Assembly: GCA_951640195.1 (NCBI GenBank) | Contig: OX621173.1 | Coordinates: forward strand, 289,780-353,779 | Reading direction: 5' to 3' | DNA from: Porpolomopsis calyptriformis | Taxonomy: Eukaryota > Basidiomycota > Agaricomycetes > Agaricales > Hygrophoraceae | Length of the DNA: 64,000 bases | Shown here: piece by piece, positions 24,974 to 48,420 of the stretch | Position numbering within the stretch: the first letter of the stretch is position 1 | Layout: each line of letters opens with the position of its first letter | Made by a program: the position numbers and the translations under genes | The notes under the pieces: generated by a model | The model's database searches: none | What the model saw: the letters and a program-made list of their open reading frames with translations, nothing else | Told to the model about the DNA's origin: nothing

Positions 24974-27900
24974 CTACAGTACCTTAAGCCAGTCTGCCCC
25001 CCTTTCCCAGTTCACCTCGAAGGGCAATTGCACTCTTCTACCTGCGGCAGCAGCACTATGGACTCTTCTTCTCAGGTCAGACCACGTGTCTGGGTGGCCA
25101 TCTTTTGCGAGAGCGGAGAGGTAAGTCCTGATCTGGTTTCGAATACTAGATAGCTGGCTATCGCTGTCAATGTTGGGAAGTTGTCTGATGGGTCTAAAGA
25201 GGCTAGTTGACCACTCTAACAGGCTGAGCACAATCTAGTCCCTGTTAGTATCTTATAGTCTACAATAGGTGGGTGCTCTCACTGTGAATGCAGCTTCCTC
25301 AACCACCGCCTCCAGCCAACCGCTATCTGCTGAGCACATAGCTAGGTCTGAGGGAGGGTTGTCACTGCAGGTGAGGGCTGTGGCCACACCAACCAGTGCT
25401 TCATCTCCGATTTGAATGATCATTCCATTGGCATCCTAGCCAAGGGTTGAGAGAGAGACTTTGTTTGCATTAAGTTTTAGGGAAAAAGGCGCACCCTCTG
25501 ACAAGATAAAAACTGGTGTCTGTTCAAGATGGCCTCCACTTTAGTGGCAAGGGCATCACTTGATTGCGACCCTCCCACTTGGTACAAACTGCGAATCAAA
25601 GCGCGGGTGTGGTTCAGAGCAATCAACCAGCATTCCAGGTTGATGGAAAAGTTTCCTCCGACAAAGGGATGGCCTCCAGATGGAAAGCCCAGCATTGTCT
25701 GCCACGCTTGGCTGACTTGGAAGAACAGAGTGATGCTGCCATCAGAGAGATGGCAGGCGGTGGCCAGATCAGTCCTGCCATAGTTGCGGCGTGCGGTGGC
25801 ATTGGTATGTCCCGCGGCGACATTGGCAGCTGAGGTGTGGACTGAATCCTCGCATTGGGGGCTCAAGTTTGGGTTGAAGGATTGGATGAGGTCGGGAAAG
25901 TGCTTGTTGTATACGGCCATCATGATTTGCTGCAGGAAGTTGGGGGAGAGGGCGAAGTTGAAGTGCGCTTTTGTTTCTCCAAGGAGGACTTGGATGAGGT
26001 GAGCGGGGGACCAGGTAGGTTGATCTTGTCTGTGGGAAGCATTCACAGATGCGAAGAGGTGCATCTGCAGAGCTTGGAGAGGTGTGTAGCTGAGACTGTT
26101 TATTACTTGGATCGAGGCTGGTTGGATGAGCGTGAGGTAGAGGTAGATGGGGGCGGCAAGCTGTTTGGGAAGCATCCAGAGGCTGGCCTGTCATGTCTGA
26201 CAACCTTGCTTCCTCTTTGGCCAGGCAATGACTGGGTGACCATTAAGGTGAAGCAGATTTTGGGTCTCCAGGGAGGTCCCACTGAAGCGAAGGTTGATAG
26301 CCTGAAAAGCTCTTGGAGGGATGCCGCAGGTGAGGTATATAAGGGTGGCAATCAGCTTAAGGATTCGCTGATCATTTTTAAGCCAGGATGAAGATTGCTT
26401 TGCACTAAAAGTAGGCGCAGGAGGTGGCGGGTTGAAAAAGATGGTTGGGTTTTATTCAAAGATGGAGGTTTGGAGAAGGGGATTATCAATGATAGTATCT
26501 AGGGGGAAGGAAGTTAAGTTGACGTCGGCCTCTAGCTTTTGGAGCATAGATGCCAAGAGGTTCTCTAGTGAGTCTATTAGGCTCTTTACGGCAGAAGCAA
26601 AATCTGATAGGGCAATCTTGGTGGACTTGGGATTAGAACCTCCAGAGAAGAAGGTTAAGCTTTGGTTATCACTCCCTGTCCAAACCACCATTGACTTGCT
26701 TTCAACCTCTTGCCCTGGCTTGAACAGGATCTTCCAGGTTGCTTTGAGATGCTGAAATGAGGTTACGCCTGGGGACAAGTTTGCAACATCTAGCCTGGGC
26801 TGTAGCCATTCCATGTCATTCTTGAGCAGCCTAGGGGGGGGGGTGGTTTAAGTTAGGTTCAGGGCTGTCAGACTTGCTAGCTGCGCTTACATCAATGGCT
26901 CTTCGCATTCACCAGCTGCATCCACACTGACAAGATTCATAGGAGGGAGATCATCAAGGAGGAGGAGATCGTTATCACTGGCTGCTGCTCTGCCTGCTTG
27001 GGCTCCTGCTCCTGCTCATCCTCCTGCTCATCCTCCTCAGCTTCACAAATGTCTAGATGCGAATCTGGCTCAGAGGGGGTATTGAAGAAGACAAAGGGTT
27101 GATGAGGGCTGCCCAGTCGCATGCTATGGATGACGACGGATCGGAACATGTACTGAAACATGGCTAAGGTGCTAGTCATGGAGCATGGATCTGCGATGGA
27201 TCCATCAGGCTTAACGAAGGAGAAAATAAGGGCTATATCTGGGATGGTGCCAATTTGGTTGGTGGAAGGAGTGATCGCATGGAGAAGGGATCCAGCAAAG
27301 GTGTGGATAGCCTTTGCCATCCCCTCAGCATTGGTGGGAGACAGGCAGGCCTTCCAGAGGATTTCAGTAGCTTGAGTCTGCTCAGAGGGGACGTCCAAAA
27401 TGAAGTTGGCCAGCCTCGGCTGAGGGTTTCTTCTGTCTCGCAACCACTAAAGCCGATACCTCAATGTGAGAGTGATAGATCTCATCATAGCAAGACTGTA
27501 TCTCTTGTAGGCTGCTGGAGAGAGATGGCGATATCTGGACTTACTCTCTTCACTAAAAATTGATTTTGTTGGGAAAGGAAAAAAAGGGGGGGGAAGGGTA
27601 GGTTTGCTAACCTTCCAGTAATGGTGTATCACACTGCAGGTTGCAAAGTGCTGAGATATCTATCTGCCGACTCAAGATAGACTGTACAGAGCTGTCTCAC
27701 TAGCCTCAAGCTATCTTCAAGCTTGCTGCCAAGCTGGGAGCTTGGAGGCTTGACCAAGCCAGCGATAGTGGCTGGTGTCATGTGGAGATTGTTGAGGAAG
27801 GTTAGCCAACCGAGTGGATCAAGGTAGGAGGGGAAATTGGACTAGATAGTGATGACGGGGGTAGGGATTGGCGGTTGAGGTGATGGCATTGGTGGGGGGG

Positions 27901-28723
27901 AATAAAATGAGGCCCTCACTCTCCTCTGGAATTGGCCAGAGCAGGCCAAGAACATATCAACGATGTAGGCAAACTTATAGTCCTTCAACTGGTGAGAGGG
28001 TTTTGGGGACTTGCATGGGTATTTCTCATAATATCAGAGGTTGCTGAGGGGGCCCTTTCAGGAACCATGGGGAGGGTTATAGGACCAGCTGGGGCAGCCT
28101 CTGCATTGGTGAGCAGGCTGAGGTTTGAGACCAGGGACAGGAAGGGTGAGTTGGAAGATGTGATTGAAAGTGAGGGTGGACTGGGATAGATCTAGGGAGA
28201 AAGCTTTCTGGACATGATTTATGATAAGTTGGGAGAGGTGCTTTTGGGTTCTAGGAAGTGAAGGTGCATGCTTTCTATGGTTGAAGTGGGTGCAGAGGGT
28301 ATCAAAGGGGATGAAGGACGAACACCTTTTACAAAAGAGGATGCTGAGGGCGGTATAGAAGTACATGCTGAAGTGAGTGAGGGCAGTGCATCCGTGATAG
28401 TCTAGGCTGTTGGGATCTGGTGGGGAGGCATGGTGAGTGCAGGAGGTAGTAGAGGAAGAGAAGATATCATTTGCTAAGGTAAGCTGGGGGAGCGTAGAGG
28501 GCAAGTTGAGTATGGGCATGGGCGTAGGCGTGGGTGTGGGTGTGGGCCTGTTTTGATGAGAAGAGTGATTTTCTTTAGGAGGGATGTATAGAGAGGGTGT
28601 GGGGGAAGGGGGTGTAGGAGAAGAGTGCTCTTCTTCCTCTTCTTCCTCTAGCAGGATAGATAACTTTTGCCTTTTGGAGGGAATGTCTATGAAAGGAATA
28701 GGTCTTTTTGTAGAGAGAGACAT
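24974..28723 (-). pseudogene. unclassified large gene, copy 1: N-terminal C2H2-like finger, C-terminal GH-T-Y motif
   Basis: Start MSLSTKRPIPFIDIPSKR at 28,723, then an acidic run, a proline/threonine-rich linker and a finger-like LFCKRCSSFIPFDTLCTHFN with RKH (C-x2-C...H-x3-5-H). Later segments are SRYRHLSPAAYKRYSLAM and GTIPDIALIFSFVKPDGSI, an E/Q-rich stretch near 27,000, and VAAGHTNATARRNYGRTDL (about 25,780). The reading ends with NWERGADWLKVL at 24,974. An intron at about 27,548-27,605 (GTTAGC...TTTTTAG) is conserved in copy 2. The organisation recalls fungal proteins with a DUF3505-like N-terminal finger that sit near telomere-linked helicases, and the C-terminal motif recalls tyrosine recombinases (GHxxxxTxxxY); both are weak inferences. 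Stops at 28,034-28,036 and 27,842-27,844, where copy 2 has CGA and TGG, show decay by transitions. Confidence 0.55.
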
Positions 28724-28724
28724 G

Positions 28725-29050
28725 TTGAGAGAGTGAGTAGCGAGGGTGAGTAGTGAGAGAGTGAGTAGCGAGAGTGAGTAGTGAGAGTGAGTAGCGAGGG
28801 TGAGTAGCGAGAGAGTGAGTAGTGAGAGTGAGTAGCGAGGGTGAGTAGCAAGGGTGAGTAGCAAGAAAGTGAGTAGTGAGAGAGTGAGTAGCAAGAAAGT
28901 GAGTAGTGAGAGAGTGAGTAGCAAGGGTGAGTAGCGAGAGAGTGAGTAGCGAGTGTGAGTAGCGAGTGTGAGTAGCGAGAGAGTGAGTAGCAAGGGTGAG
29001 TAGCGAGAGAGTGAGTAGTGAGGGTGAGTAGCAAGAGTGAGTAGCAAGAG
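28725..29050 (+). repeat. GTGAGTAGCGAGAGA minisatellite
   Basis: About two dozen units built on GTGAGTAG(C/T)GAG(A/G)G lie immediately upstream of the start codon of the minus-strand gene. The homologous place before copy 2 (35,782 onward) has only a single such stretch, so the array expanded after duplication. The long Leu/Ser/Tyr-rich readings are artefacts of it. Confidence 0.95.
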
Positions 29051-29678: not shown

Positions 29679-29917
29679 CTGCCACTAGTTTAGCTTATTT
29701 TTATATTGCCCTCTTTTCACTTTCTCACCTGTATACCATCTGCATTCACATTTGGATCCATCTCAAGGCTATATCATTTGGTCTAAGTCTTATTGTCTCC
29801 AGTATTTCCTACTCATAGCTATATATATGTACAAAAGATTGAAATATCAGATTACCTAACTACAAAGAGCCTCTGATAATGTTTTGCAAGTTAGAAGGAG
29901 GGGGTTATACAGATAGT

Positions 29918-30420
29918 AAGTAAGTTAGAAGTAAGTATCTTGATGAAGTAACTAGGATGAGTAAGTAACTAAGGAAGTGAGTAGTAATAAATATGTAAGT
30001 AAGTGAGTGGCAATTTATAAGTAAGGAAGTGAGTTAATAACTAAATAACTAACTAAGGAAGTAAGAAACTAAGAAACTAAGTGAATAACAAATTTAAGAA
30101 AATAAGTAAGCAAGCAATAATATACTAAAGTAAAGTAAAGTACAGTCAGTAAGTAAATAAGTTAGCAAGTAAGTTAGTAAAGAAGTAACTAGAAAGTAAC
30201 TGGGTGAAGAAGCAAGTGAGTAAAGCAAGTAAGTGAGTGAGTAACTTATAATAACAAGTGAGTGAGTAACTAATAACAAGAAACTAAGGAAGTGAGTAAA
30301 GAAGTAAGTGAAGAAGTAAATGAAGTAATTAGGTGAACAAGGAAGTACCCAACTAAATAAAGTAAGTGAGTAAGTAGGGAAGAAGAAGAAGAAGAAAGTA
30401 AGTGAAGGAGGGGAGTAAAG
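29918..30420 (+). repeat. GTAAGT/GTGAGT array (left arm)
   Basis: Imperfect short-unit array dominated by GTAAGTAAG, GTGAGTGAG, AACTAAG and GAAGTAAG. Same unit order as 46,960-47,460 and 49,100-49,580, and inverted at 32,310-32,810, so these arrays share ancestry and are not independent slippage. Confidence 0.9.
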
Positions 30421-31151
30421 GAAGAGAGGAGAGATGTAAGATGTGAGATTGAGATGAAATACTATACTTTCCAGTGTACAAACCTCTATAGTGAAGATTA
30501 CCAGAGTGTGTAGATAGGTAGAGGTAGTTGGGAATAAGGAAGTAGCCTAATATCTGTAAATAAACAAGATCAGTTTTACTTAGGCTAATAGAGATAGATA
30601 GGTATCTAGGCAACAATAGGTAGCATTCTGTCTTCTTCCTCTCATTCTGTTACTACTTCAAAGGATGATTATTATCTATAGATTGTTAATTTTAACCTAG
30701 AGGATAGCAAGATTCTATAGAAACTTCAGAATAGAATTACAAGCTAGGCTACAGAGGTACTAGGCTGCAGTACTTATAGTATAGACTGATAGATAAGTAC
30801 TTGAACCTAAAGCTCCTGGATAAGAGGGTGAAGCCCTAGGGGCTAATTCAGTAGATAATGTTAGAAGAGGAGGTAAAGATAGTAGTGGGGATAAAGAGCT
30901 TAGTATAGGAGGATGGGCTATTAGATGTTGGTAATATGAGTATAATGAGTATTGATTCAACAGGTATATCAGCTTAGAAGATGTGGATAGCTCTGATTAA
31001 AGAGCTCTGCAGGATAATATATCTTGAGATAGAAGTAAAAATAGTACCCAGATTTTATTATCATAAGCTATTATGATAACAAGGAGAAATACAACAAGGT
31101 TTAGCTGATTATTGAAATTAGCTTAGTTTATAAGCTAGAGGGAGGATTATT

Positions 31152-31330
31152 ACCAAATCATCATATATTATTTTCATACATCTATCTACAAATGACCCTC
31201 ACACAGTGTCTGCCTCATTGTCCCTCTGCTAAATACCTGTAAGGTTGGCACATAGGGTGGTTGACACCCAAATAGTCCTTGTGGCCAGCTAATGCCTGCT
31301 TGTAGCATGTCTCAGCCTCACCATATCATA
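31152..31330. other. ~180-bp segment absent from the second element copy
   Basis: Between GGAGGATTATTA and GAGAAGGTGAAAT this copy has about 179 extra bases that are missing at 48,180. It could be a small insertion here or a deletion there; no inverted ends or target duplication are clear. Confidence 0.6.
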
Positions 31331-33017: not shown

Positions 33018-35781
33018 AGGCTCAGGCTCCTGCTCCTGCTCATCCTCCTGCTCATCCTCCTCAGCTTCAAAAATGTCTAGATGCGATGTCATGATCCCAA
33101 ACTGATTTGGTATCAAACTTAACCAAAGATCATGTATTCAGCAAGTAGCATCCATAGCTCAAATACCCTTTATCTTATCTTATCTTATCTTATTTTAGAT
33201 AAGATATCACTATCCCTCACATATTATCTTATCTCAGATAAGATACACTACTATCTTTACCTATGCTATCTTATCATGGACAATAGCATTCTTCCCCATT
33301 GTTCTCTGAGTCAGAATGACTCATATCCCATTTGTCTATTGTTCTGTCATCACTCCATTGTTCTCTGAGTCACTATGACTCATATTAATCTCCTCCATTG
33401 TTCTCCTCATTGTCTGACTCAGAGTGAGTCACAATTCAAACTCCTCATTGTTCTTTCATCCATTGTTCTTATTTCCTATTATTCTCATTGCCCATTGTTC
33501 TCAAACATATATAAAGGGCCCCCTTTTCACCAGTGAGGAGTTTAGTTCACATTTAGTTCACTTTCAACCCACTTTATCCCTCCCCCCCTACTCTCCCCCT
33601 TTTCCCTTGAACTCACCCCTAGTACTCAGTACCTAGTACCACCTCTTATTGATACTACTTGTCTGTAGTCAATACATCCAATCTAGTCTAGTCTATTAAG
33701 CTTATACCCTGTGTGATTTCACCTAAGCCCTCTTACGTTAAGAACCAACTTAGGAATCACCCCTTGACGTTTTCTGTAAGTTGAAGATAGCCATTGTGGA
33801 CTATCTTATCTTACTTCAGCCCCTGCTCATTCATCACATTCTCTAAGTCTCAGTCCTTATTGGAGAGACCTCACTGTGATACGTATTCTTCTAAGTCAGC
33901 CGTTGACTTCATTCTTATTCTCCCAGTCAATACTATCCATTGAGTTTGGATAGCCTGTTCATCTGTACATCCTAGCCAAGGATTACTCAAGCCCCATCAA
34001 AGAAGGAAGTGTCCATTACTCAATCAATTCACATCTCCCCTGAACAACTAGGACTTACTTGATTAACATACAACTCCAGTAGTTCTAGAAGTGAAGTATT
34101 TATATTTCACCTGATAGCGAATCTGGCTCAGAGGGGGTATTGAAGAAGACAAAGGGTTAATGAGGGCTACCCAGTCGCATGCTATGGATGACGACAGATC
34201 GGAACATGTACTGAAACATGGCTAAGGTGCTAGTCATGGAGCGTGGATCTGCAATGGATCCATCAGGCTTAACGAAGGAGAAAATAAGGGCTATATCTGG
34301 GATGGTGCCAATTTGGTTGGTGGAAGGAGTGATCGCGCGGAGAAGGGATCCAGCAAAGGTGTGGATAGCCTTTGCCATCCCCTCAGCATCAGTGAGAGAC
34401 AGGCAGGCCTTCCAGAGGATTTCAGTGGCTTAAGTCTGCTTAGAGGTGACGTCCAAAGTGAAGTTGGCCAGCCTCAGCTGAGGGTTACTTCTATCTTGCA
34501 ACCACCAAAGCCGATACCTCAATGTGAGAGCGATAGATCTCATCATAGCAAGACTGTATCTCTTATAGGCTGCTGGAGAGAGATGGTGATATCTGGACTT
34601 GCTCTCTTCACTAAAAATTGATTTTGTTGGGAAAGGAAAAAAAGGGGGGGGAAGGGTAGGTTTGCTAACCTTCCAGTGATGGTGTATCACACTGCAGGTT
34701 GCAACATGCTGAGATATCTATCTGCCAACTCAAGATAGACTGTGCAGAGCTATCTCACTAGCCTCAAGCTGTCTTCAAGCTTGCTGCCAAGCTGGGAGCT
34801 TGGAGGCTTGACCAAGCCAGTGATAGTGGCTAGCGTCATGCGGATATTGTTGAGGAAGGTTGGCCAACTGAGTGGATCAAGGTAGGAGAGGAAATTGGAC
34901 CAGACGGTGATGACAGGGGTAGGGATTGGCAGTTGAGGTGATGGCATTGGTGGGGGGGAATAAAATGAGGCCTTCACTCTCCTCTGGAATTGGCCAGAGC
35001 AGGCCAAGAAAATATCGACGACATAGGCAAACTTATAGTCCTTCAACTGGTGAGAGGGTTTTGGGGACTTGCATGGGTATTTCTCATGATATCGGAGGTT
35101 GCTGAGGGGGCCCTTTCAGGAACGATGGGGAGGGTCGTAGGACCAGCTGGGGCAGCCTCTGCATTGGTGAGCAGGCTGAGGTTTTAGACCGGGGACAGGA
35201 AGGGGGAGTTGGAAGATGTGATTGAAAGTGAGGGCGGACTGGGATGGATCTAGGGAGAAAGCGTGCTGGACATGATTTATGATGAGTTGGAAGAGGTGCT
35301 TTCAGGTTCTAGGAAGCAAAGGCACATGCTTTCTATAGTTGAGGTGGGTGTGGAGGGTATCAAAGGGGATGAAGGACGAACACCTTTCACAAAAGAGGAT
35401 GCTGAGGGGGGTGTAGAAGTACATGCCAAAGTGAGTGAGGGCAGCGCATCCACGATAGTCTAGGCTGTTGGGATCGGGTGGGGAGGTATGGTGAGTGCAG
35501 GAGGTGGAGGAGGAAGAGAAGATGTTATTTGCTAAGGTAAGCTGGGGGAGCATAAAGGGCAAGTTGGGTATAGGCATGGGCATGGGCGTGGGCATGGGCA
35601 TGGGCCTGTTTTGATGAGAAGAGTGATTTTCTTTGGGAGGGATGTATAGAGAGGGTGTGGGGGAAGGGGGTGTGGGAGAAGAGTGCTCTTCTTCCTCTTC
35701 TTCCTCTGGCAGGATAGATAACTTTTGCCTTTTGGAGGGAATATCTATGAAAGGAATAGGTCTTTTTGTAGGGAGAGACAT
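32835..35781 (-). pseudogene. unclassified large gene, copy 2, 3'-truncated and LTR-interrupted
   Basis: Start MSLPTKRPIPFIDIPSKR at 35,781; the same finger (ILFCERCSSFIPFDTL, then RKH), proline-rich linker, introns and middle domain as copy 1 at high identity. It ends at the GTAA element junction (32,832), so the second half of the coding region (24,974-26,850 in copy 1) is missing. A solo LTR splits it at 33,087-34,116, and an extra Glu/Gln-rich expansion (CTGCTC repeats) lies near 33,000-33,060. It keeps CGA and TGG at two sites where copy 1 has stops, but shares the GS*KGP stop near 35,120, so at least one lesion may predate the duplication, or that site may be an unrecognised intron. Confidence 0.75.
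33087..34116. mobile_element. solo LTR, 1,030 bp, with GCGA target duplication
   Basis: Comparison with the uninterrupted copy 1 (27,050-27,080) defines the insert exactly. It starts TGTCATGATCCC and ends CACCTGATA, where the terminal TGATA would be TGACA before one transition. GCGA precedes (33,083-33,086) and follows (34,117-34,120) it. A TATA box (CATATATAAAGGGC, about 33,509) and a downstream TTTAGTTCAC repeat look like the LTR promoter and start region, on the + strand. No internal retrotransposon sequence remains. Confidence 0.88.
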
Positions 35782-35789
35782 GGTAGTGA

Positions 35790-36120
35790 GAGAGGATGGA
35801 TGGCGAGAGAGGTGTTGGAATAGATGTGGGCAGGAGGGAACACGTCTCGGAGGCTACTCAGAGGGTTAGATGGTATTCCGACTTACTTGGGATAACGGAC
35901 TGGGTTAGTGGAATGGGCATGTGGCTGTGCAGTGACAGTGAGGTGATGGGTGATGTGACATGTGACATGACATGACAGAGTCAGGTGACTGTGACCAAGG
36001 GATAGGGTATGACTAAGTGTGACATGTGACATGACGTGACTTATGCTTACTAAGTCACCCCCCCTCCCTATGTGATGTGACATATGCTTACTAAGTCACC
36101 ACCCCCCCCCCTCCTGAAAT
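35790..36120. repeat. 5' flank of copy 2 with TGACATG/TAAGTCAC motifs and C-runs
   Basis: Short repeats of GTGACATG and TGCTTACTAAGTCAC occur between two C-runs (36,056 and 36,102). One part, GTGACTTATGC...TAAGTCAC, is an imperfect hairpin. Counterpart of 29,051-29,235. Confidence 0.6.
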
Positions 36121-36129
36121 AAACCTACA

Positions 36130-36800
36130 TATCTGTGTCCCCCTCCTCTTGCCACCTTAATATCTCAGCTTGTACCTATTGGATTCATTTCAAATTTGGC
36201 ACACATAGCCACCCTCATATCCCACTTTGATGTTGCACATTGGATTGGTCTGATGTGTACTACTAACTTGCATTTTGAGTATACATATCTATATATCCCC
36301 CTCCCTCTTACTACCTTAATATCTCAGCTTGTACCTATTGGATTCATTTCAAATTTGGTACACATACCCACCCTAATATCCTACTTCGGTTGCGCACATC
36401 AGACTGGTCCAATGTGCACTACCTATTCTCATTTCATTATTATCCCAACTACAGTATATAAAACTCAATATAGTAGGGATGCTCAATTGAGGATAAGTAG
36501 TGCACATCGGACTGGTCCAATGTGCGCCATCAAAGTGGGATACGAGGGTGTGTATGTGTACCAAATTTGAAATCAATCCAATCAGTACAAGCTGAGATAT
36601 AAAGGTGGCAAGGGAAGGCGGACATATAGATAGCTATACTCAAAATGCAAGTTAGTAGCACACATCAGACCAATCCAATGTGCAACATCAAAGTGGGATA
36701 TGAGGGTGGCTATGTGTGCCAAATTTGAAATGAATCCAATAGGTACAAGCTGAGATATCAAAGTAGTAAGGGGAAGGGGGGAACATATAGATATCTATAA
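36130..36800. repeat. fold-back satellite 1
   Basis: Two direct units of about 170 bp (TATCTCAGCTTGTACCTATT, then CAAATTTGG, then a palindromic core, then AACTTGCATTTTGAGTATAC) face inverted copies of themselves across a centre at about 36,425-36,500. Four palindromic cores lie at about 36,233, 36,391, 36,501 and 36,658. No ORF is credible. Confidence 0.85.
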
Positions 36801-37279
36801 TAGTTTTTTCAAGCTCAGTATATCCTTACCAATTTCTAACAACATTTTCATTGAAGTGGCTCTAGCCAGGCTCCAAAACTATAATGTAGTGTGCCATCCA
36901 TTGAATATTTCAACACTGAGTACTATTGTTCCCAGTATATATACTAATTTGCATACAATTAGTTTAACTCCTAAGGGCTGACAACTGTGCTACAGTAATT
37001 AGTCCTGAGAATTATAACACTGACAGAAAGGTTCTTAGAAGTTAAGAGTAAAAATGTTAATAGTAATCAATAATCAGCAAGAGTTATTATACAACACAAA
37101 GTACTCATTTAAATTCCTTCCAGATTTTCTAATCTATTTCCTATTTTTCTTGCAATAGTTTCTTAAATTACAATTTCTCTCTTCCTATTGCATTACTCTA
37201 ATATAAAATTAATTATTAACTTCAAAAAACCACTGTGTGAATTATATGAGACAAGTAAAAATACAATAAGTTAAAAATG
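36801..37279. other. AT-rich spacer
   Basis: No gene or repeat recognised between the two fold-back satellites. Confidence 0.5.
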
Positions 37280-38135
37280 CAAGTGGGTCTGATAGCTATC
37301 ACCTAGTCAGATTGATTTCAAATGTAGTACACATACCCACCCTCATATCCCACTTTGATACTGCATATCAGATTGGTCTAATGTGTGCTTTTGACTTGTA
37401 TTTTGAGTATGCATATCTATATATCCCCCCCCCCTTACTACCTTTATATCTTAGCTTGTACTGATCAGACTCATTTCAAATTTGGTACACATACACACCC
37501 TGATATCCTACTTTGGTTGTGCAGATCTGACCGGTCAGATGTGTGCTACTAACTTGGGTTTTGAGTATACATATCTATATGTCCCCTTATAGTGACCACC
37601 TTAATATCTCAGCTTGTACTGATTGGATTCATTTCGAATTTGGTACACATACACACCCTGATATCCCACTTTGGTAGCGCACATCGGACCAGTCCGATGT
37701 GTGCTACTTATCTTCATTTTATTATTGTCCCAACTATATAAACTCAATATAGTAGGGATGATCAATTGAGGATAGGTAGCGCACATCGGACCGGTCCGAT
37801 GTGCGCTACCAAAGTGGGATATCAGGGTGTGTATGTGTACCAAATTCGAAATGAATCCAATCAGTACAAGCTGAGATATTAAGGTGGTCACTATAAGGGG
37901 ACATATAGATATGTATACTCAAAACCCAAGTTAGTAGCACACATTGAACTGGTCCAATGTGCGCTACCAAAGTGGGATATCAGGGTGTGTATGTGTACCA
38001 AATTTGAAATGAGTCCAATTAATACAAGCTGAGATATAAAGGTGGTAAGTATAGGGGATATATAGATATCTATAGATACAGATACTCAAAATGCAAGTTA
38101 GTAGTGCACATCCCACTGGTCTGATGTGTGCTACT
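37280..38135. repeat. fold-back satellite 2
   Basis: Same unit family as satellite 1, three direct and two or more inverted units around a centre at about 37,705-37,775 that matches the centre of satellite 1. Six palindromic cores at about 37,361, 37,520, 37,677, 37,781, 37,936 and 38,103. The arm next to the centre contains the perfect 36-bp palindrome at 37,775-37,810. Confidence 0.88.
37775..37810. repeat. perfect 36-bp palindrome (best copy of the core)
   Basis: Half-site GGTAGCGCACATCGGACC followed directly by its exact reverse complement, with no spacer. It is the most complete version of the dispersed core and contains two CGG/CCG triplets in inverted arrangement. Confidence 0.97.
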
Positions 38136-38139
38136 TATC

Positions 38140-38288
38140 CTCATTTTCACCTGTTTGTTTGCTTCCATTCCTTAGTTTGGGGTCAATATACTTACCCTTT
38201 TTCATTTCTTGATTATTGCTCTATTTTGAACCACTTTTTAAAATGCTACCAAAACCCTAGGGTAACCCTGACCTTGGGGGGATATCAC
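38140..38288. repeat. module shared with 46,200-46,360
   Basis: A palindromic core is followed about 130-140 bp later by AAAACCCTAGGGTAACCC and CCTTGGGGGGATAT; the same order recurs after the core at 46,166. It may be the terminal part of the element that carries the fold-back satellites. Confidence 0.6.
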
Positions 38289-41200
38289 CTATAAATCATC
38301 ACCATCACCATCACCATCACTATCACTGTCCTGAGTGAGTTCCACCACTTTCAATTTCTTCGAAGTTGATGATGGCGACTTTACTAATTCTGAAAGGAGA
38401 GTGAGAAATGCAGGGTGGAAAAGAGAGAACTGCAGATGGACCTGGGGAACTCCAGGTACATTTGTAGGGGGTGGCTTTTGAAGCCTTGAGAGTGGAAGAT
38501 TGTGGGATAGATTTGCTGGGGAAGTTCAAAGTGATGAAAGGCGCAGTGGATGTTGATGAGGTGTGGGTGGTAGTGGAGCAAGTGGCTGACACAAGACAAG
38601 GGTTAGGGTAAGATATCAAATGAAACAGAATATGATACTTATAACCAATGACTTCTCTGGAGCCTTCTCCAGAGCCTTCTCCGGTGCCTTGCCTTTGCCT
38701 AAATAACAAATGGAAGTGAATGAAAGTAATAACAGGATAGTAAGGGAATGCACCTTTGTTGCAAGGAATGATCTGTTCATCATTAGAGTCATCCTCACTT
38801 AAGACAGGCAGTGGTCTGGTGGCGATAGCGGAGACTGGATGATAAACAGTAGATGTTAGCGCACATTGGATGAGTATGATGTGCACAACGTACCTTCATT
38901 GTCTACTAGCAGAGTAATGGATGATAAATGGAGAATGTTAGTGCACATTGGATGAGTACAATGTGCGCGATGTACCTTCGTCATCTACTAGTGGAGTAAC
39001 AAATGATAAATGGAGAATGTTAGCGCACATCGGACGAGTACAATGTGCGCGACATACCTTGATGTGTGGATGGAGTAATGGATGGTAAATGGAGAATGTT
39101 AGTGCACATCGGACAAGTACGATGTGCGTGACGTACCTTTGTCATCTACTAGCAGAGTAACAAATGATAAATGGAGAATGTTAGTGCACATTGGACAAGT
39201 ATGATGTGCGCGACGTACCTTTGTCATCTACTAGCGGAGTAACAGATGATAAACAGTGGATGTCAGTGCACATCAGATGAGTACGATGTGCGTGATATAC
39301 CTTGGTGTGCAGAAGGAGTACTGGATGGTAAATGGAGAATGTTAGTGCACATCGGACAAGTGCAATGTGCATGACATACCTTGATGCGCAGGCAGAGTTT
39401 TGGATAGTATAGTGCTAATGTTAGAGGACGTTGGACATGTCTGATATGAACCTTTATCAGCTTCCTTGTGCTGGCCCATTCCCACCTCATCCAAGTCCAC
39501 CATGCTGATGGTGGAAGTGATATTGTCCTGTTCATCGATGAAGAAGGAGTCGCCGGTGTCAGATGAAGGTTTGTGCTTGTGGGTTCATTTGAATGGGTCT
39601 TGTGAGGGGGCATCTGTTATAGAAGATAATAGTGAGGTCAGCATGGACAAGGAAGATGATTGTGTTGTCGTTGTGGGTAGATCAAATCCATATCAGTAGT
39701 CTTGGATACATGGTGTGTGTGTGTTGATTCACCAGGACTTGTGCAGGCTTGAGGAGAAGATACAGAGCGAGTGGGAAGAGATTCTGGATTAGTGTTGCCA
39801 TCATTGTCGGTCGAGGCAAGACAGATTCGTGATGGCGCATGGTGAAAGTTGTGGTGTATGATGCAGCTAGACTGAGCAGTGTCGGACTCCTCAATCAAGT
39901 CTTTGGAATGGAGTCAAATGACATTCATTTCCATTGCCTGAGGATAGAATTAATCTAGGGAAATTGAACGGGTGTAGGTGTGATCTACCTTGATGAGTGA
40001 ATCTATTGCAACACAGATGGAGTCCCACATAACACCTTTGTCAGAATTGTTGGTAGAGAATCGCACTGGTCTGGATGCTTCGATATAATCAATGACTTGC
40101 TGTATTTCATGGAACTCCTTCAATTCATATTTCCGGTTGGCTAGTTGCTCAATAAGATTGTCACTGATGTCATCAGAGTTGATGTCCTCCATAAGTGTTT
40201 CATCCTTGATTATAATGTCAGTGGGGAATGGAATAGAGAGAGTCTATGTCAGCGTCAATACCCATTTGTTGCTGCATTTCATTTTGGCCTCTTGCATGCA
40301 TCTCCTCATCGTGTTCTGAAAGTTGGTCCAGTGATAAGCAATCAACATATTTGCGTGATGCGACCAGGTATAGTTGAATGTGAGATGTTCAAAGATAGCT
40401 GCTATTGCCAAAGGAGGATGATCCCATTGGCGCAATTTCATTGCAGTCTCAGACGACCATTCCCACATAGTCCAGGTGAGGATTGTTGACCTAATGATTG
40501 AGGGATCTGGTTTCAGGGTTGCTTCTGTCTAGGTTTTTGTCATCCAGGCTAATAATTTATCGAGGAGCTTCTGGCGCTTGGTGAGTGGAGGCATGTGTGC
40601 ATTCAATGAGGATGGTGTTTTCCAACATTCATCGAAATGCTTCTTCGACAATGGCCTTGGGATAGCAGGGCATGCTGGACTCGTCAATTCCAATTGGAGA
40701 TGGGGGAGGAGTACCATCCGAGCATGTGAAAAGTAATCGAGCATCTGGCGGAAATGTGAATTAGATGATGAGATGGATTTCGGTAGTGAGCTTACCATTG
40801 TCGGACTATGTGGGAGCAGTCCGCAAGTCATGCAGATATGCAGAAACAAGCCTCCAGTGTAGTTGTTACATTTTTGTTCACGAGTAAAGGCCATATGATG
40901 GTCTATGAGCGGTTCGAACCAATGAGATACCTACAGAATCTGTCAATAGCTGTTCAGATTGAATATGAGGATTAGTTGAGTCCTGTAATAGTAGCGCACA
41001 CCAGACACATCCAATGTGCATGAGAATCCTCCGATACGGAATAGATACCCATTGCAATATCTCAAACACATGCATACATCAGATGTGTCTGATGTGCGCG
41101 GGTATCCTCAGATGCAGAAAGGATACCCATTGAAAGATCTGAACCACATGCACACATCGGATGCATCCGGTGTGTGCGGGTGTCCTCTGATGTGGACAGG

Positions 41201-43632
41201 ATACCCATTACAAAATGTGAAACACTCGCGCACATTGGACATGTCTGATGTGCACGGGTATCCTTGGATGTGGACAGGATATCCATTGCAAGATCTGAAA
41301 CACTCGCGCACATCAGATGTGTCCGATGTGTGCTAGTATTGCAGCACTCAAATGCACAATAGTCATTCACTTACCTCCTTCAATGCTTCAGGAAAGTGCC
41401 CATATATTCCGTCAAGTTTGGAGAATAATGTTCAATATAGCAATGGCATCGGCATAGTTGTTGATAGCAATTTGATACTCAGAACGAATGTTACTTTGCC
41501 AAGTGCCACCTCATAGAATCCAGTGCATTCTGGATTCTCCTCTGTCTGAGCTGCGAATTCTTGCTTCAGCATTTTCGTAACTGCCATCAGATAGTTTTGA
41601 TTGTCTGATGTCGCTTTGACTGTGGTTAGTCCGAGATGCATTGGGTTTAGTATTGTGGAGTCGAATATGGTGTCGAGATGATTCATCATGGATTCCATCC
41701 AGATTTCTATATTGCAACCCTCTGTTGATTTCGCTAGTCTCTCAGTCAAATCTTGGATCTGCGCTATCAATTCATGGTTAGTTGCTTCCTCATCACTCAA
41801 CTTCTCATGGTTCTTCAACAACTCATTAACATCTTTTACATTTGGGAATGGGGTTAGAGAGGTGATCTGCTGCAACAATTTATATGCTTCTATGATATGT
41901 TCCACAATAATCTGTGATATTTCGTCAATCATTAATTATGCTCCGGGATATGCGAGTCTGCTCACTCCTCCATGAATGTTCACAAATCGCATTGATAATT
42001 GTGCCACATTGAATTCCAGTAGCGTCCTAAAATGTCCCTTGAATGATATGAGTATCAAAAGCATGCGTGCGATCTGTGAGTTCCCAACGAGACATGAAAG
42101 ATGACTGTTCCAGGTCTTGAACTCTGTGTGAATAATCTCCAGCTCCTTCTCAAATTTGTCATTGTTTTCCAATGAGAGTCGAGCCAGGTGCTCTGCGAGT
42201 CCTTCTTCCTCTGTCTTTTGATAATCGTACAGTGTCTGATTCTCTGATAAATGTTTTGCAACCTCCACATTAATACGACCCCTCGGTCCCCTGAGGTCCG
42301 GAGGACATGTTTTATATATCGACGTGATCCCCTAGACGTCCACTACACTTCTACAATGTTCCCGACTACGCGATTTGGCTTCCCGTCCAGCGATTTATCT
42401 CCGAATTCTTTGGATTTCTGCGAATTTCTTCGAATTCTCCGATCCTTCGATTCGCGATCGCAGCTCATATCAAAGGATGCATCTGATAGCCAGATGTCCA
42501 TTGTGTAGATCCTCATCGTTTCCATTGACCCTTTCACTGGTGGCTTCATTCAGAAGTCTCATCCCTTTACTATATAGCATATAAAGGGATCTTTGTTTTC
42601 ACAGATATATTTACTTGTAGATATGTTTGTATCATAGAGAAGGAAGATAGATTCCATCGTCCCACGTCTAGTCCTTCATGTTTGAGCCTCTTCGACCGCC
42701 TCTAGCACTCTAGAGAGTGCTCCGATTTTCCAATTTCTTCTATTTCTTCGATTTTCACGATTTCTTTGATAGCTCCTTTCTATTATGCCTCCCATCATCT
42801 CTCGGGGCAGATCCAAGAGCTCAGACGGCTCCACATCACATCAGTGTCATGCTCCCTGGCTAATTCTGATTGATGCGTTAGCGGATGAGATTGCAGATAT
42901 GACTGTGTCTATCACTTACTCACATTGTACACTCTCACACCCCACATGCCCATCTCATGCATCTTATCCTTCAATCCAGCAATCTGTTTGTTGAGATCCA
43001 CTTGTCCTTCCTCATCCAACTAGGTCCAATCCTTCTTCTTATTCTTGGGGTGAAGTACTTGGATCTGCATATTGCAGGTATCGCAGAGTGATTGAATTGC
43101 AGCAAAGCGATGCTGTCTGGCTGCCATAATGAGTTTCTGCATTCCATCCACATGCTTCAAATCAAACTCCGGCAGCTCTGCATTTGGGTCTGTCAACAAC
43201 TCGCACTTGAGATCCTCACGATTGATGATTAGTATGAGGAAGTTGCGGGGGTTGCGGTGTCAGATTCTGTGCATTTCCATTGACATCCTCAGCTTCTTTA
43301 CCTCCATTACCTTCAATAGCTGAGCATTCCAGGTGCTGAAATGAAGTTCCTGTTTGTCCACAAACATATCCAACATCATGTAACCAAGCAGACACTTCTG
43401 GGCTGCAGTGTCCAGGTGCATCGCCTTCAAGGCTAGACCCTCTGCATCTCCTACATCCATGTCAATATCTGATCCAGTATCCTAATATCACATAAGTCAA
43501 TGGTTCCCGCAAAACAATGTGTAGTATGAATTCACATACCAATGAGTCTGACAATGGGACTTCTTTCTGTGGATGAGGCAGACTATGCAGACGAGAGGTG
43601 GGCTGTTTGGTTTTCTTAGTTACGATAGACAT
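38289..43632 (-). CDS. unrecognised multi-exon gene invaded by palindromic-core arrays
   Basis: The family is not recognised. Start MSIVTKKTKQPTSRLHSL at 43,632; donor GTATGT follows SDSL, next exon DTGSDIDMDVGDAEG. Helical exons follow (NRKYELKEFHEIQQVIDYIE near 40,130; EISQIIVEHIIEAYKLLQQI near 41,900; MEVAKHLSENQTLYDYQK at 42,268). A 392-bp intron (40,983-41,374) joins GIYGHFPEALKE to DSTNPHIQSEQLLTDS in frame. Near the 3' end SMVDLDEVGMGQHKEADK continues through a microexon array to SAIATRPLPVLSEDDSNDE, then KAPEKALEKAPEK and an acidic tail VVELTQDSDSDGDGDGDD before TAG at 38,289. Stops at about 43,258 (MHRI*) and 43,020, and an LTR-type insertion at about 42,285-42,920, suggest it is not fully intact. 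Acidic and Lys/Pro-rich tails suggest a nuclear protein. Confidence 0.6.
38855..39460 (-). repeat. array of hairpin introns and 12-nt microexons (78-82-bp unit)
   Basis: Palindromic cores at 38,859, 38,941, 39,023, 39,102, 39,184, 39,266 and 39,344, plus a degenerate one at 39,426. On the coding (minus) strand a typical unit is donor GTACGT, the hairpin core, branch CACTAACA, acceptor CTAG (70 nt), then the exon TAGATGACAAAG (12 nt). Read in phase 1, these exons add VDDK, VDDK, VDDE and VDNE between EADK and SAIATRP, with the frame kept throughout. Three units lack the AG acceptor and carry a different 3' part. Confidence 0.8.
40983..41374 (-). repeat. 392-bp intron filled by palindromic-core repeats
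   Basis: Donor GTAAGTG at 41,374 and acceptor TTACAG at 40,983 bound five cores (40,993, 41,071, 41,148, 41,227, 41,307) in 78-bp units. The unit's other conserved parts are GGATACCCATTG and GGGTATCCT, which are themselves complementary. Being 78 bp, the array is open in one + frame; that reading is a shadow. Confidence 0.8.
42285..42920 (+). mobile_element. LTR-type fragment with start of an ORF, inserted in the minus-strand gene
   Basis: Separates two coding parts of the surrounding gene. Contains a promoter-like ATATAAAGGGATCTTTG (about 42,579) resembling 55,706, and then, on the + strand, an ATG at 42,785 (MPPIISRGRSKSSDGSTS, then HAPWLILIDALADEIADMT) that runs out where the host gene resumes. 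I infer a 5' LTR plus the beginning of the element's first ORF. Ends approximate. Confidence 0.45.
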
Positions 43633-43829
43633 ATTGATTTGTTAATAGCGGCTTAGAAAGTGGGCACAAGATGATGATGAATGGACTTGTGCACTCCGCA
43701 TTTATACATAAACACAAGCGAGAATAAGTGAGACTCATGTATTACATGTGTGCGGTAGTCGGTCCAGTCACATGGAAAAGATTTACAAGAAATATTGCCT
43801 AGTGCAATGTAAAGTGTAATTAGCAAACG

Positions 43830-44240
43830 GGAGAGTAGCTGCGCACATCGGATGTGTCTGATGTGTGTGGCTACTCTCCATGTGGACCATATCACTCCAT
43901 TCCATATCATAGATATGTTGCACACATTGTACTCATCCGATGTGTGTGACCTATCTCCATTTACTCTACATCACTCCGCTCTGTTTCATAGATATATCTC
44001 GCACATTGTATGCGTCCGATGTGCGTGACCTATCTCCATTTACTCCACATTACTCTGCTCCGTTTCATAGATAGGTCATGCACATCGGACGAGTATGATG
44101 TGCGCAACATATCTATAATTACTCCACACCACTCCGCTCCATTTCATAGATATGTTGCACACATCGTACCTGTCCAATGTGCACAACCAATCTCCGTTTA
44201 CTCCACATCATTCCACTCCATAGTATAGATATCTTGCATT
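43830..44240. repeat. upstream array of palindromic cores (~78-bp unit)
   Basis: Five cores at about 43,840, 43,917, 43,999, 44,078 and 44,154, just upstream of the minus-strand gene. The first lies in a longer hairpin with outer stem GGAGAGTAGC/GCTACTCTCC; the others have outer stems of the GATATGTTG/CAACATATC type. The spacer is CTCCATTTACTCCACATCAC-like. Confidence 0.88.
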
Positions 44241-44646
44241 CATATCTCACATTCATTATACATTTCTGATATACGCTATCACTCTCCTCTTATATCTTGT
44301 CTTCATTTCTGCTCTCCTCCGCTCTCCACTTTCATCCTCCATCAATCAGGCTTTGCCTTTCAAATCTTATCTTATCAGTCATGGTAATTAAATTCTATAT
44401 CTGGTAATATTCCCGAATTTGGGTTATCTGTACTGCCACCACCTTTGTCAGCCACTTTGTGGCTCACTTGCCTTTTTTATCTGTTTGTCCTCTGTTTGTT
44501 GTCACTGCATGCCTGTCTGAGTTTCAATTCATCACATTATAAGAGAGGGCTCACTCTCATCTCTTTCTCTTCATTACTCTCATTTCTTTCACCCTACCCA
44601 ACCCACTCCTCTCACCCACCCACTCCCCTCTGTCACACCCAAAGCC
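44241..44646. promoter_or_regulatory. divergent intergenic region, pyrimidine-rich
   Basis: CT-rich stretch (44,570-44,640) immediately before the ATG at 44,647, as in many fungal promoters. No other signal. Confidence 0.35.
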
Positions 44647-45769
44647 ATGTCATCAAATGAGCTTGAGGCCCAAATGGCCGAGCTCAGGAAGAAACTCGAG
44701 GCTGCCTGAAAACTCAAACCCGAGGAACGTGAATGCAAATGTCAAGAAGAGGAAGAAGAATGCTGCCAACAGTGGGAATGCGAAGCCAAGGAGAAAAGAT
44801 GCGCTGAGGAATGCAAGCGTGAACAGGCCCGCGAACGCACAGAAGCCCACAGGAGAGCGCAGGCCCGTGAATGCGAGGTGGCACAGCATGGCCAGAAGCC
44901 CAAGGGTGCGCACCAGTATAGCCACGCATCCGTTACTACTTCCGACCCATCTGCCACCTCCTCCTCCAAAGGAAAGAAACGGCAGCGCAAAATGTAAGTC
45001 CCCCTCCCCTTCTCTCTCTTTTTACTGACTTTTTACTTTCTTTTTATTCTATTCTAGGTCTATTGTATGCAAGCGGTGCATGAAGTTCAACCTTCCATGC
45101 ATTGCCCCCCCATCCACAGGCTGTGGCACCGCCTGCCACATGTGTGTCAACGGGAAGGCCTGCTGCATCCCAAAGTCAGATGATGTAGCTGATGATGACA
45201 ACGACATCAACAACAATGACAGTGACGATGATGATAAGGTCGACAACCACCCCTGCCCTGCCAAGAAGATGTGGGTCAGCATCTCCAAGGTCTACATGGC
45301 CGCCCCCGCCCCTGCGATCCGTCTGTCAGGAGTTGAACAACTCCTAACAAAGATTCTTGTTGAGGTCCAGACCCTCATCATGGAGGTCTGCGCATCCCAG
45401 TACTAGGCCAAGAGGAGGGGGGAGCAGCTCCTCACTGCTCTCTCTACTCTTGATGACACTCTGTCCCCCCACCAGACCTGCATCCCTCTGTGGGATGGCC
45501 CAGCTCAGCCCCTCAGCACCCAGTCTGCCCCTATCTCCCTTCCCTCCTCCTCCTCTGCCCCTATCCCTGCCCCCACCTCTGCCCCCACCCTACCCCCATC
45601 CCTGCCCCAACTCCCCCTCCCCCTCACTCCACCACCACCATTACCTCCTCCTCCATCACCCCTCCTCCCCCTCTCAACATCCCCCTCCCTCCCATTCTTC
45701 CTCCCACCCTCAACACTCAAGACTCCCTTCTCCTGTCCAAGGATACTCAGTCTGTTGGGGATCAGCTAG
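44647..45769 (+). pseudogene. coiled-coil protein with Zn2Cys6-like cluster, two nonsense codons
   Basis: ATG 44,647 (MSSNELEAQMAELRKKLEAA), a TGA at 44,707, then Glu/Cys/Arg-rich helix (ECKCQEEEEECCQQWECEAK) to KGKKRQRKM. A short intron (donor GTAAGT about 44,994, acceptor TTCTAG about 45,057) leads to the cysteine cluster CKRCMKFNLPCIAPPS and CGTACHMCVNGKACC, spaced like a Zn2Cys6 DNA-binding motif but with extra cysteines. Acidic DDNDINNNDSDDDD follows, then TAG at 45,404-45,406 (CAG to TAG is likely) and a proline-rich tail to TAG 45,767. The same architecture is found decayed at 54-55 kb. Probably a DNA-binding-type protein; target unknown. Confidence 0.65.
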
Positions 45770-46080
45770 AGAAAGATGTTGAAGGGGTATAATAATTTTA
45801 CTTTAATCTTAGTTTCTTTTTTAATTTCATGTATATCTTGTATATGCTTTTTGTGTTATAATCTTAGTGTCTTTTATAATTGATTCATGTTTAGCTTGCC
45901 TTATCTGATGTTATAATTCCTCAGTAACAATATTTATTAAGTCAATTTAAGTCACTAGTACAATACTTCTAACTAAGTTTATTAGCCTAATAAAACTCAG
46001 AACCTACTTATAATAATACTGCTACCCATATTGTATATCTGAAATATGAACTACATAGGATTGTAGTATCTCTAAGTGAG
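45770..46080. other. AT-rich intergenic stretch
   Basis: Nothing recognised. Confidence 0.4.
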
Positions 46081-46360
46081 AATCCTCATACACATTGGAC
46101 ATGTCCGATGTGCGCGAGGATTTGAGATTCTTGGTTATAATGTCTTACCTAAATCAGAGACTACTTGCGCACATTGGACACGTCCGATGTGCGCTACACT
46201 TCTCAATTTTCTCCTTGTTTTGCTTTTTTTTCTTGCATTCTCTTGCTTATAATGGCTTCTTTTTGACTTCTAAATTCTGGACAGTTTTATATCCCCTTTA
46301 AAAAAGCTAGCAAAACCCTGGGCTAACCCCAACCTTGGGGGGATATTGCCTATAATTGCG
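46081..46360. repeat. two palindromic cores plus shared terminal module
   Basis: Cores at about 46,090 and 46,166. The first has an outer stem AATCCTC/GAGGATT found at no other copy. The second is followed by AAAACCCTGGGCTAACCCC and CCTTGGGGGGATAT at about 46,308-46,345, as at 38,250. Confidence 0.8.
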
Positions 46361-46469: not shown

Positions 46470-48420
46470 CACGATTTCATTGGACAAATATCTTAATATC
46501 TGAAGGATATTAAGGCATTGTCAAGTATATAATTGAAAAACTACATATTTACCATCAGATATTGTTATAAAGATTTCTTTTTGTTGCTCATATATTTTCA
46601 ACAGATGCTTTATATGTTTGGTTTGATCCTGAAATAACATGCAGCAAAAAAGACAAGCCATGGCTCCATTTTTTCTTAAGTTGCTCTTATTATATAATAA
46701 AAACAGATTAGATCTTCTCCCCAGTGTCTGCTACTAGTTTGGCTTATTTTTATATTGCCCCCTTTTCACTTTCTCACCTCCATACTATCCACATTCACAT
46801 TTGGATCCATCTCGAGGCTGTATCATTCAGTCTAAGTCTCATTGTCTCCAGCATTTCCTACTTGTGGATATATATATGTACAAAAGATTGAAATATTAGA
46901 TCACCTGACTACAAAGAGCCTCTGATAATGTTTTGCAAGTTAGAGGGGGGGGGTTATATAGATAGTAAGTAAGTTAGAAGTGAGTATCTTAATGAAGTAA
47001 CTAAGGAAGGGAGTAGTAATAAATATGTAAGTGAGTGAGTGGCAATTTATAAGTAAGGAAGTGAGTTAATAACTAAATAACTAACTAAGGAAGTAAGTAA
47101 CTAAGTAACTAAGAAAGTAAGTGAGTAACAAATTTAAGAAAGCAAGTAAGCAAGTAATAATATACTAAAGTAAAGTAAAGTACAGTAAGTAAGTAAATAA
47201 GTTAGCAAGTAAGTTAGTAAAGAAGTAACTAGAAAGTAACTGGGTGAAGAAGCAAGTGAGTAAAGCAAGTAAGTGAGTGAGTAACTTATAATAACAAGTG
47301 AGTGAGTAACTAATAACAAGAAACTAAGGAAGTGAGGAAAGAAGTAAGTGAAGAAGTAAATGAAGTAACTAGATGAACAAGGAAGTACCTAACTGAATAA
47401 AGTAAGTGAGTAGGGAAGAAGAAGAAGGAGAAGAAAGTAAGTGAAGGAGGGGAGTAAAGGAAGTGAGGGGAGATGTAAGATGTGAGATTGAGATGAAATA
47501 CTATGCTTTCCAGTGTACAAACCTCTGTAGTGAAGATTACTAGAGTATGTAAATAGGTGGAGGTGGTTGGGAAAGAGGAAGTAGCCTAATATCTGCAAAT
47601 AAACAAGATCAGTTTTACTTAGGCTAATAGAGATAGATAGGTATCTAGGCAATAATAGGTAGCATTCTGTCTTCTTCCTCTCATTCTGTTACTACTTTAA
47701 AGGATGATTATTATCTACAGATAGTTGATTTCAACCCAGAAGATAGCAAGATTCTATAGAAACTTCAGAATAGAATCACAAGCTAGGCTATAATACTCAT
47801 AGTATAGACTGATAGACAAGTACTTAAACCTAAAGCTCCTGGATGAGATGATTAAGCCCTAGGGGATAATTTAGTAGATAATGTTAGAAGAGGAGGTAAA
47901 GATAGTGGTGGGGATAGAGGGCTTAGTATAGGAGGATGGGCTATTAGATATTAGTAATATAAGTATAATGAGTATTGATTTGATAGGTATATTAGCTTAG
48001 AAGATGTGGATAGCTCTGATTAAAGAGCTCTACAGGATAATATATCTTAAGATAGAAGTAAAAATAGTACCTAGATTTTATCATAATAAGCTATTATGAT
48101 AACAAGGAGAAATATAACAAGGTTCAGCTGATTGTTGAAATTGGCTTAGTTTATAAGCTAGAGGGAGGATTATTAGAGAAGGTGAAATATAAAATCTAAA
48201 AGCAATTATATAAAACCTTCAAAGTGGTATAGTTTATATAATGGGATGTTTATAAAAGAGATTAACAAGGTAGCAATAATATGTAGGGGATAAGGATGAG
48301 GATAAGGATTAGGTAGTAGTATATATGTGGAGATAATGTATTTGTATGATAATGTAAATGTAGGATATGGGATTGGGATTGGGATTAGGATTAGGATTAG
48401 AAAGCAATCTGACTATAAGA
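46470..48420. mobile_element. GTAA element, copy B (left part)
   Basis: Direct copy of 29,236-31,550 at moderate identity, without the two extra segments noted in copy A. GTAAGT array at 46,960-47,460 after the same TAATGTTTTGCAAGTTAG entry. Differences between copies are mainly C/T and G/A. No protein-coding frame survives. Confidence 0.8.

Follow-up and report, generated by a model that had tools for sequence, protein, structure and literature searches.

The 64,000-nucleotide stretch of the Porpolomopsis calyptriformis genome analyzed here (assembly GCA_951640195.1, contig OX621173.1; hereafter the window) carries a short palindrome in 30 copies, and comparison with the rest of the genome places these copies in a single transposon family, now decayed, that has fold-back derivatives. 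The palindrome is best read, with moderate confidence and from sequence comparison, as a cis-element of this fungal transposon family and most likely as the binding site of a dimeric protein. As such, an unusual cis-element has an ordinary home, a decayed transposon family.

One palindrome, one transposon family

The 30 window palindromes have the form GCACATCGGAC-NN-GTCCGATGTGC and all lie between 36,235 and 46,192. The centre measures 2 bp in every one of them, in a search that permitted spacers of 0-5 bp, and this bears out the preliminary description, made from the letters of the window, of a ~28-bp palindrome repeated about 30 times in 10 kb. Two extra matches, at 13,422 and 18,080, differ in spacer length and are probably accidental. 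At up to two mismatches, the half-site gives 56 window matches against 8.3±2.9 in 100 shuffles (largest 15), a roughly sevenfold excess. A whole-genome search was run over 33.5 Mb in 17 contigs with the degenerate 22-mer CACATYRGAYNNRTCYRATGTG at up to two mismatches, and it returned 117 sites against 3 for the reversed control. Specifically, 113 of the 117 fall inside examined loci of one transposon family (111 before contigs C2 and C12 and neighbors were added), the C2 palindromes being too degenerate to count among the 113; the remaining four were not placed, and the reversed control predicts about three by chance.

The assignment to a single decayed family follows because the palindromes concentrate in clusters that share a one-sided element end. 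This end, ...AACCCTAGGGTAACCCTGACCTTGGGGGGATATCRCCTATAA(T), is present in all examined clusters except C2, in 18 copies by pattern and 19 by DNA search. It reads CTATAAT in 16 of the 18, CTTTAAT in one and CTATAAA in one, a T directly follows it in 17, and the bases beyond it vary among copies except in a C6/C14 pair that lies in a larger duplication. The window copy of the element spans approximately 38,311-46,356 (Table 1). A relative on C10 matches it piecewise at 82-92% identity and carries further insertions, the C12 relative is more distant (76%), and those on C6 are remote. Satellite F, whose 292-nt arms are 92% complementary, is read as a non-autonomous derivative, and for the element end of the F copy there is an uninterrupted relative near L020:4700-4740.

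The preliminary description had also reported that when one arm changes the other often changes too, and had proposed scoring arm complementarity against shuffled arms. The pair it quoted (at 41,074) is present, but pairs of this kind occur no more often than expected by chance. Across 115 palindromes (the chance match C6:98559 was dropped), 974 cells are Watson-Crick against 980±10 with the right arms reshuffled (984±9 within family), and double changes number 44 against 46±5 (48±5 within family). Neither measure differs from its reshuffled value, and 319 of 383 departures from consensus are C>T or G>A (56 are transversions), so the paired look comes from the two arms decaying independently at the same mutable sites. 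Compensatory evolution is rejected on this basis. One family and no compensatory excess, the combination that the preliminary description had named as refuting its reading, is essentially what was found. Over the 10 bp outside the core, 4.95 of 10 positions pair against 4.64±0.14 across families; within families, only C (8/300) and A (16/300) lean upward and F leans downward (297/300). A passive repeat would still make the case instructive: C>T decay at shared mutable sites can mimic co-varying hairpin arms, and only reshuffling separates the two.

Table 1 Features of the palindrome region in the window
Feature	Position	Strand	Details
Fold-back satellite F	36138..38130	.	10 palindromes, most often 158-159 bp apart (also 167-168), inverted halves
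Palindrome starts, satellite F	36235, 36394, 36502, 36660, 37363, 37521, 37679, 37781, 37939, 38106		
Shared element end of F copy	38253..38294	+	AACCCTAGGGTAACCCTGACCTTGGGGGGATATCACCTATAA; abuts gene 1 3' end
Gene 1, decayed	38300..43632	-	coiled-coil-like protein; limits and splice sites by eye
Array A	38861..39449	-	8 palindromes (last degenerate), period 79/82, among gene 1 exons
Array B	40996..41331	-	5 palindromes, period 78, within an inferred ~400-bp gene 1 intron
Array C	43843..44182	.	5 palindromes, period 79, between divergent genes 1 and 2
Gene 2	44647..45406	+	exon 1 44647-44993, exon 2 45058-45406; limits by eye
Array D	46090..46192	+	2 palindromes 79 bp apart, 3' of gene 2, upstream of element end
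Shared element end	46314..46356	+	AACCCTGGGCTAACCCCAACCTTGGGGGGATATTGCCTATAAT

A past binding site or a passive repeat

A past binding site is preferred over a passive repeat mainly because the A/T positions of the arms are conserved relative to the linkers. Specifically, A2, A4, T5 and A9 of both arms changed in 7 of 416 cases against 204 of 1550 linker A/T sites (p 1e-14), and the effect is significant individually in families A, C, D and E.

The element, furthermore, offers a tentative candidate binder in its gene 2, whose cysteine spacing is Zn2Cys6-like. Genes 1 and 2 are divergent and transcribed away from the array C interval, and the gene 2 product joins a coiled-coil-like charged part to the pattern C-x2-C-x6-C-x11-C-x2-C-x6-C (in the C2 and window copies). 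Fungal Zn2Cys6 clusters follow the spacing C-x2-C-x6-C-x(5-12)-C-x2-C-x(6-8)-C, and the gene 2 cysteines agree with it. Gene 2 recurs at seven loci (two C6 pieces at 104 kb counted once, a weak C5 match excluded), and the six cysteines are in register in five of the seven aligned copies; the C12 copy lacks two and one C6 copy lacks one. In C2 the gene reads without interruption for 228 codons (L030:679-1428, minus strand), and the window copy has an in-frame stop at 44707. Observed/expected CpG in gene 2 is 0.71 in C2, 0.37 in the window, 0.43 in C10, 0.47 in C6 and 0.02 in C12. A search for relatives among 5.8 billion proteins, in which 7992 candidates were scored, gave none at E<=0.001.

In the favored model the palindrome would be a dyad-symmetric cis-element of the decayed family, whose non-coding intervals (between the genes, in gene 1 introns and from gene 2 to the end) are filled with sites at a ~79-bp period. 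A dimeric protein would most likely have bound these sites while the element was active, and the gene 2 product might be that binder, recognizing the element that encodes it in the manner of TNPA in En/Spm. A more elaborate version is doubtful: the element would mark itself with dyad sites, phased at ~79 bp in an array, to which the zinc-cluster protein it encodes would bind, inverted relatives of the promoter and 3' arrays would lie in introns of its other gene, and the repeat of one intron region would have turned into spliceosomal intron units.

Several observations weigh against a bound site. Array B lacks conservation of the arm A/T positions (4/56 vs 19/182, p 0.61). CGG-N6-CCG is a known site type, and within the palindrome it is the CGG triplets that have decayed most, with CG kept in both arms in only 17 of 115. 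The preliminary suggestion of a site for a dimeric Zn2Cys6-type factor holds in part. A dimeric binding site remains the best functional reading, in agreement with the constant 2-bp centre, the symmetric arms, the A/T positions kept in the arms and the Zn2Cys6-like spacing in a gene of the same element, but the decayed triplets do not fit. The p-values are overstated, as units within one array are related by descent, and the palindromes were gathered by similarity (>=16/22, fixed centre), which favors conserved cores; one degenerate C unit was added later. Half of the array A units are 3 bp longer, so the strict period is broken. CpG loss is general in the window and does not set the element apart (observed/expected ratios of 0.47 for 36.2-46.35 kb and 0.38 for the window as a whole). 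On the protein side, the match of gene 2 to Pfam Zn_clus (PF00172) is sub-threshold (E 0.31; 11.6 vs 21 bits), and the predicted model of exon 2 is of low quality (mean pLDDT 61, with about 50-60 across the cysteines). For the element as a whole, a left end was looked for and not found, no transposase family was seen among the element exon ORFs (open reading frames) tested against Pfam, a set that may not include left portions of the element, and on C2 the 20 kb examined lack arrays A, B and C and show an element end that is at most degenerate.

A passive tandem repeat is the foremost alternative, a tentative one: the palindrome would have served as a minisatellite seed inside the transposon and spread by slippage and conversion, with no bound protein. 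Palindrome numbers differ between the closest copies, window and C10, as is usual for tandem arrays (A 8 vs 10, B 5 vs 4, D 2 vs 4, and C 5 vs 7 plus one degenerate). C2 carries a 24-bp array, the A/C and B/D linkers are related, and the C/G positions of the core change about as much as those of the linkers (more in B and E, equally in C, less in A and D); the unconserved core A/T sites of array B fit as well. Within arrays, however, core and linker share the same history, yet A/T change reaches 13% in linkers and 1.7% in arms, and a passive repeat would need conversion confined to the 24-bp core.

Arrays and linkers

Neighboring palindromes lie mostly 78-79 bp apart, and 82 bp apart in half of array A. 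Of 51 array linkers, 40 measure 54 or 55 bp and eight measure 58 bp, with 45, 53 and 56 bp seen once each. The preliminary description saw five unrelated settings with only the core in common. This view is borne out in part only. Among the fold-back linkers, F1 resembles A reversed (1/500 shuffles), and every other F comparison gave at least 31/500. The same element end occurs in every examined cluster except C2, and linkers are similar in reversed orientation between A and C (z 5.6, 0/500 shuffles) and between B and D (z 5.1, 0/500). A weaker similarity joins C and E reversed (z 3.4, 3/500), the orientation expected because gene 2 lies on opposite strands in the two settings. B vs D forward also leans up (2/500), as does A vs E reversed (7/500), the latter contrary to the orientations of the stronger pairs; all other comparisons gave 13/500 or more. 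From these likenesses we infer that arrays A and B are probably related to C and D in inverted orientation and ended up within introns. No palindrome was seen in or past gene 1 of the C6 copy (123-125 kb; >=14/22, and at thresholds of 16 and 15 as far as 138 kb). This copy may not retain the gene 1 parts that hold A and B in the window, and gain in one lineage or loss in the other would both fit.

Hairpins and mobile palindromes as unlikely alternatives

If the palindrome acted as a folded strand of DNA, a foldback near the element end could serve replication or termination in single-stranded form, like the 3' hairpin of Helitrons. This is improbable. The end is one-sided, with no inverted partner in the examined loci, the T that follows it resembles an A|T insertion, several lineages have sequence able to form hairpins close to the end, and a large foldback is present separately on C2. 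Yet the end is not CTRR, the palindromes sit ~190 bp or more inside it and also in introns and between genes, compensatory change is absent, and none of the 35 matches to the Helitron Rep domain (PF14214) in the genome lies within a cluster, the nearest being C10:202111, ~20 kb away.

Action in transcripts, for instance through intron shortening or small-RNA production, is less probable still. In array A, read on the gene 1 strand (minus in the window), a GTAYRT-like donor stands just before the palindrome and a CTRAC-like branch site just after it in 16 of 18 units, and Rfam returns miRNA-precursor matches, the best at E 6e-13, though with 78 against 211 gathering bits. All Rfam matches stay below gathering scores, and the miRNA-precursor matches are read as mirroring the inverted repeats. 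Furthermore, none of the 97 units of arrays B to F carries both splice signals on either strand, and the pairing excess is absent after reshuffling. Mismatches do not favor wobble on the transcribed strand either: array A has 12 cells that would wobble on the minus strand, that of gene 1, against 30 on the plus strand, and the remaining families are about balanced, apart from E (15 plus vs 31 minus). The RNA hairpin of the preliminary description thus finds no support.

Its small hairpin replicon, an independent mobile palindrome invading unrelated repeats, is highly unlikely: the same core does occur in several array types with linkers that are not all relatable, and in the C2 24-bp array, but nearly all copies in the genome belong to loci of a single element family, about as many stray sites are expected by chance as were left unplaced, and the settings are partly homologous.

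Further features of the element and its loci

Gene 1 exon ORFs gave no clear Pfam family when tested. The gene is interrupted at ~42267-42837 by another repeat, of which 42268-42678 is 92% identical to C6:125156-125566 and which the C10 alignment skips; a 133-residue piece of gene 1 was found at at least three loci. Plavaka (115 matches) and KDZ (19) transposases occur elsewhere in the genome and none inside the clusters, the closest being a Plavaka match at C10:119727, ~8 kb away.

On C2, a 24-bp tandem array, its unit read as the palindrome itself, lies beside the uninterrupted gene 2. By eye, a large foldback (GAGAATGAGGGTTGGAGG... and its complement, L029:9780-9900) is seen beside this array, and a possible degenerate element end abuts a COPB-like repeat. 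An empty-site check found that the C9 copy of this COPB-like repeat is 98% identical to C2 for 1183 bp and continues past the C2 break; the other flank was not found in this comparison, hence no target duplication. A coatomer-beta-like gene piece at C2:3626491 recurs at 10 further places, with protein identities of 91-98% to the query, which suggests capture and spread by a mobile element.

By plain count, 11 of the 12 palindrome clusters on contigs of known length (on C2, C3, C5, C6, C9, C10, C12 and C14) lie within 350 kb of a contig end, the exception being C14:562 kb. A 2.2-kb segment with the element end is duplicated between C6:2166098-2168305 and C14:561328-563536 (95%). Near the region, the window holds direct duplications at 27059-28750 and 34117-35807 (93%) and at 29679-31152 and 46728-48175 (91%).

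Comparison with known systems

Among the literature matches listed, judged by title, there was no description of this element; the exact core occurs in four stretches of prokaryote genomes and in no viral contig searched. Introner-like elements are near-identical introns dispersed in many host genes. Array A resembles them, and tandem intron duplication, in its repeated hairpin-bearing units with donor-like and branch-like signals, but this is one array type only, and the 113 placed copies of the 117, all in transposon loci, give no indication of spread into host genes, which speaks against an introner-like element. Foldback elements of the FB type have tandemly repeated inverted arms. The F copies are likewise largely inverted tandem repeats, whereas they have a one-sided end in common with a two-gene element.

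The Pleurotus Helitrons HELPO1/2 (PMC4289320) have a conserved one-sided end, a T after it and internal hairpin-forming sequence, and to that extent the present element is alike. It differs in that its end is not CTRR, the clusters contain no Rep domain and the palindrome is far from the end. Specifically, neither a Rep/helicase ORF nor a 3' CTRR end with a hairpin ~12 nt upstream was found in the clusters (the near-end hairpin was judged by eye).

The closest parallel to a bound site is En/Spm, a CACTA element. According to PMC2613891, it carries many short subterminal TNPA-binding motifs, direct and inverted, and encodes a putative DNA-binding protein, and its non-autonomous derivatives retain the repeats. 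The present element shares a short motif in both orders, an element-coded putative DNA-binding protein and repeats in non-autonomous copies. It differs in its 24-28 bp dyad, its 79-bp period and the presence of sites in introns and between divergent genes, and no transposase was seen in its exon ORFs tested against Pfam. CACTA terminal inverted repeats were not found: the right end, ...CCTATAA(T), is not CACTA-like and has no inverted partner in the examined loci. If the site was bound by the element's own protein, En/Spm self-recognition would have a counterpart in fungi that uses a simple site, and in array A a regulatory repeat would be seen turning into intron units.

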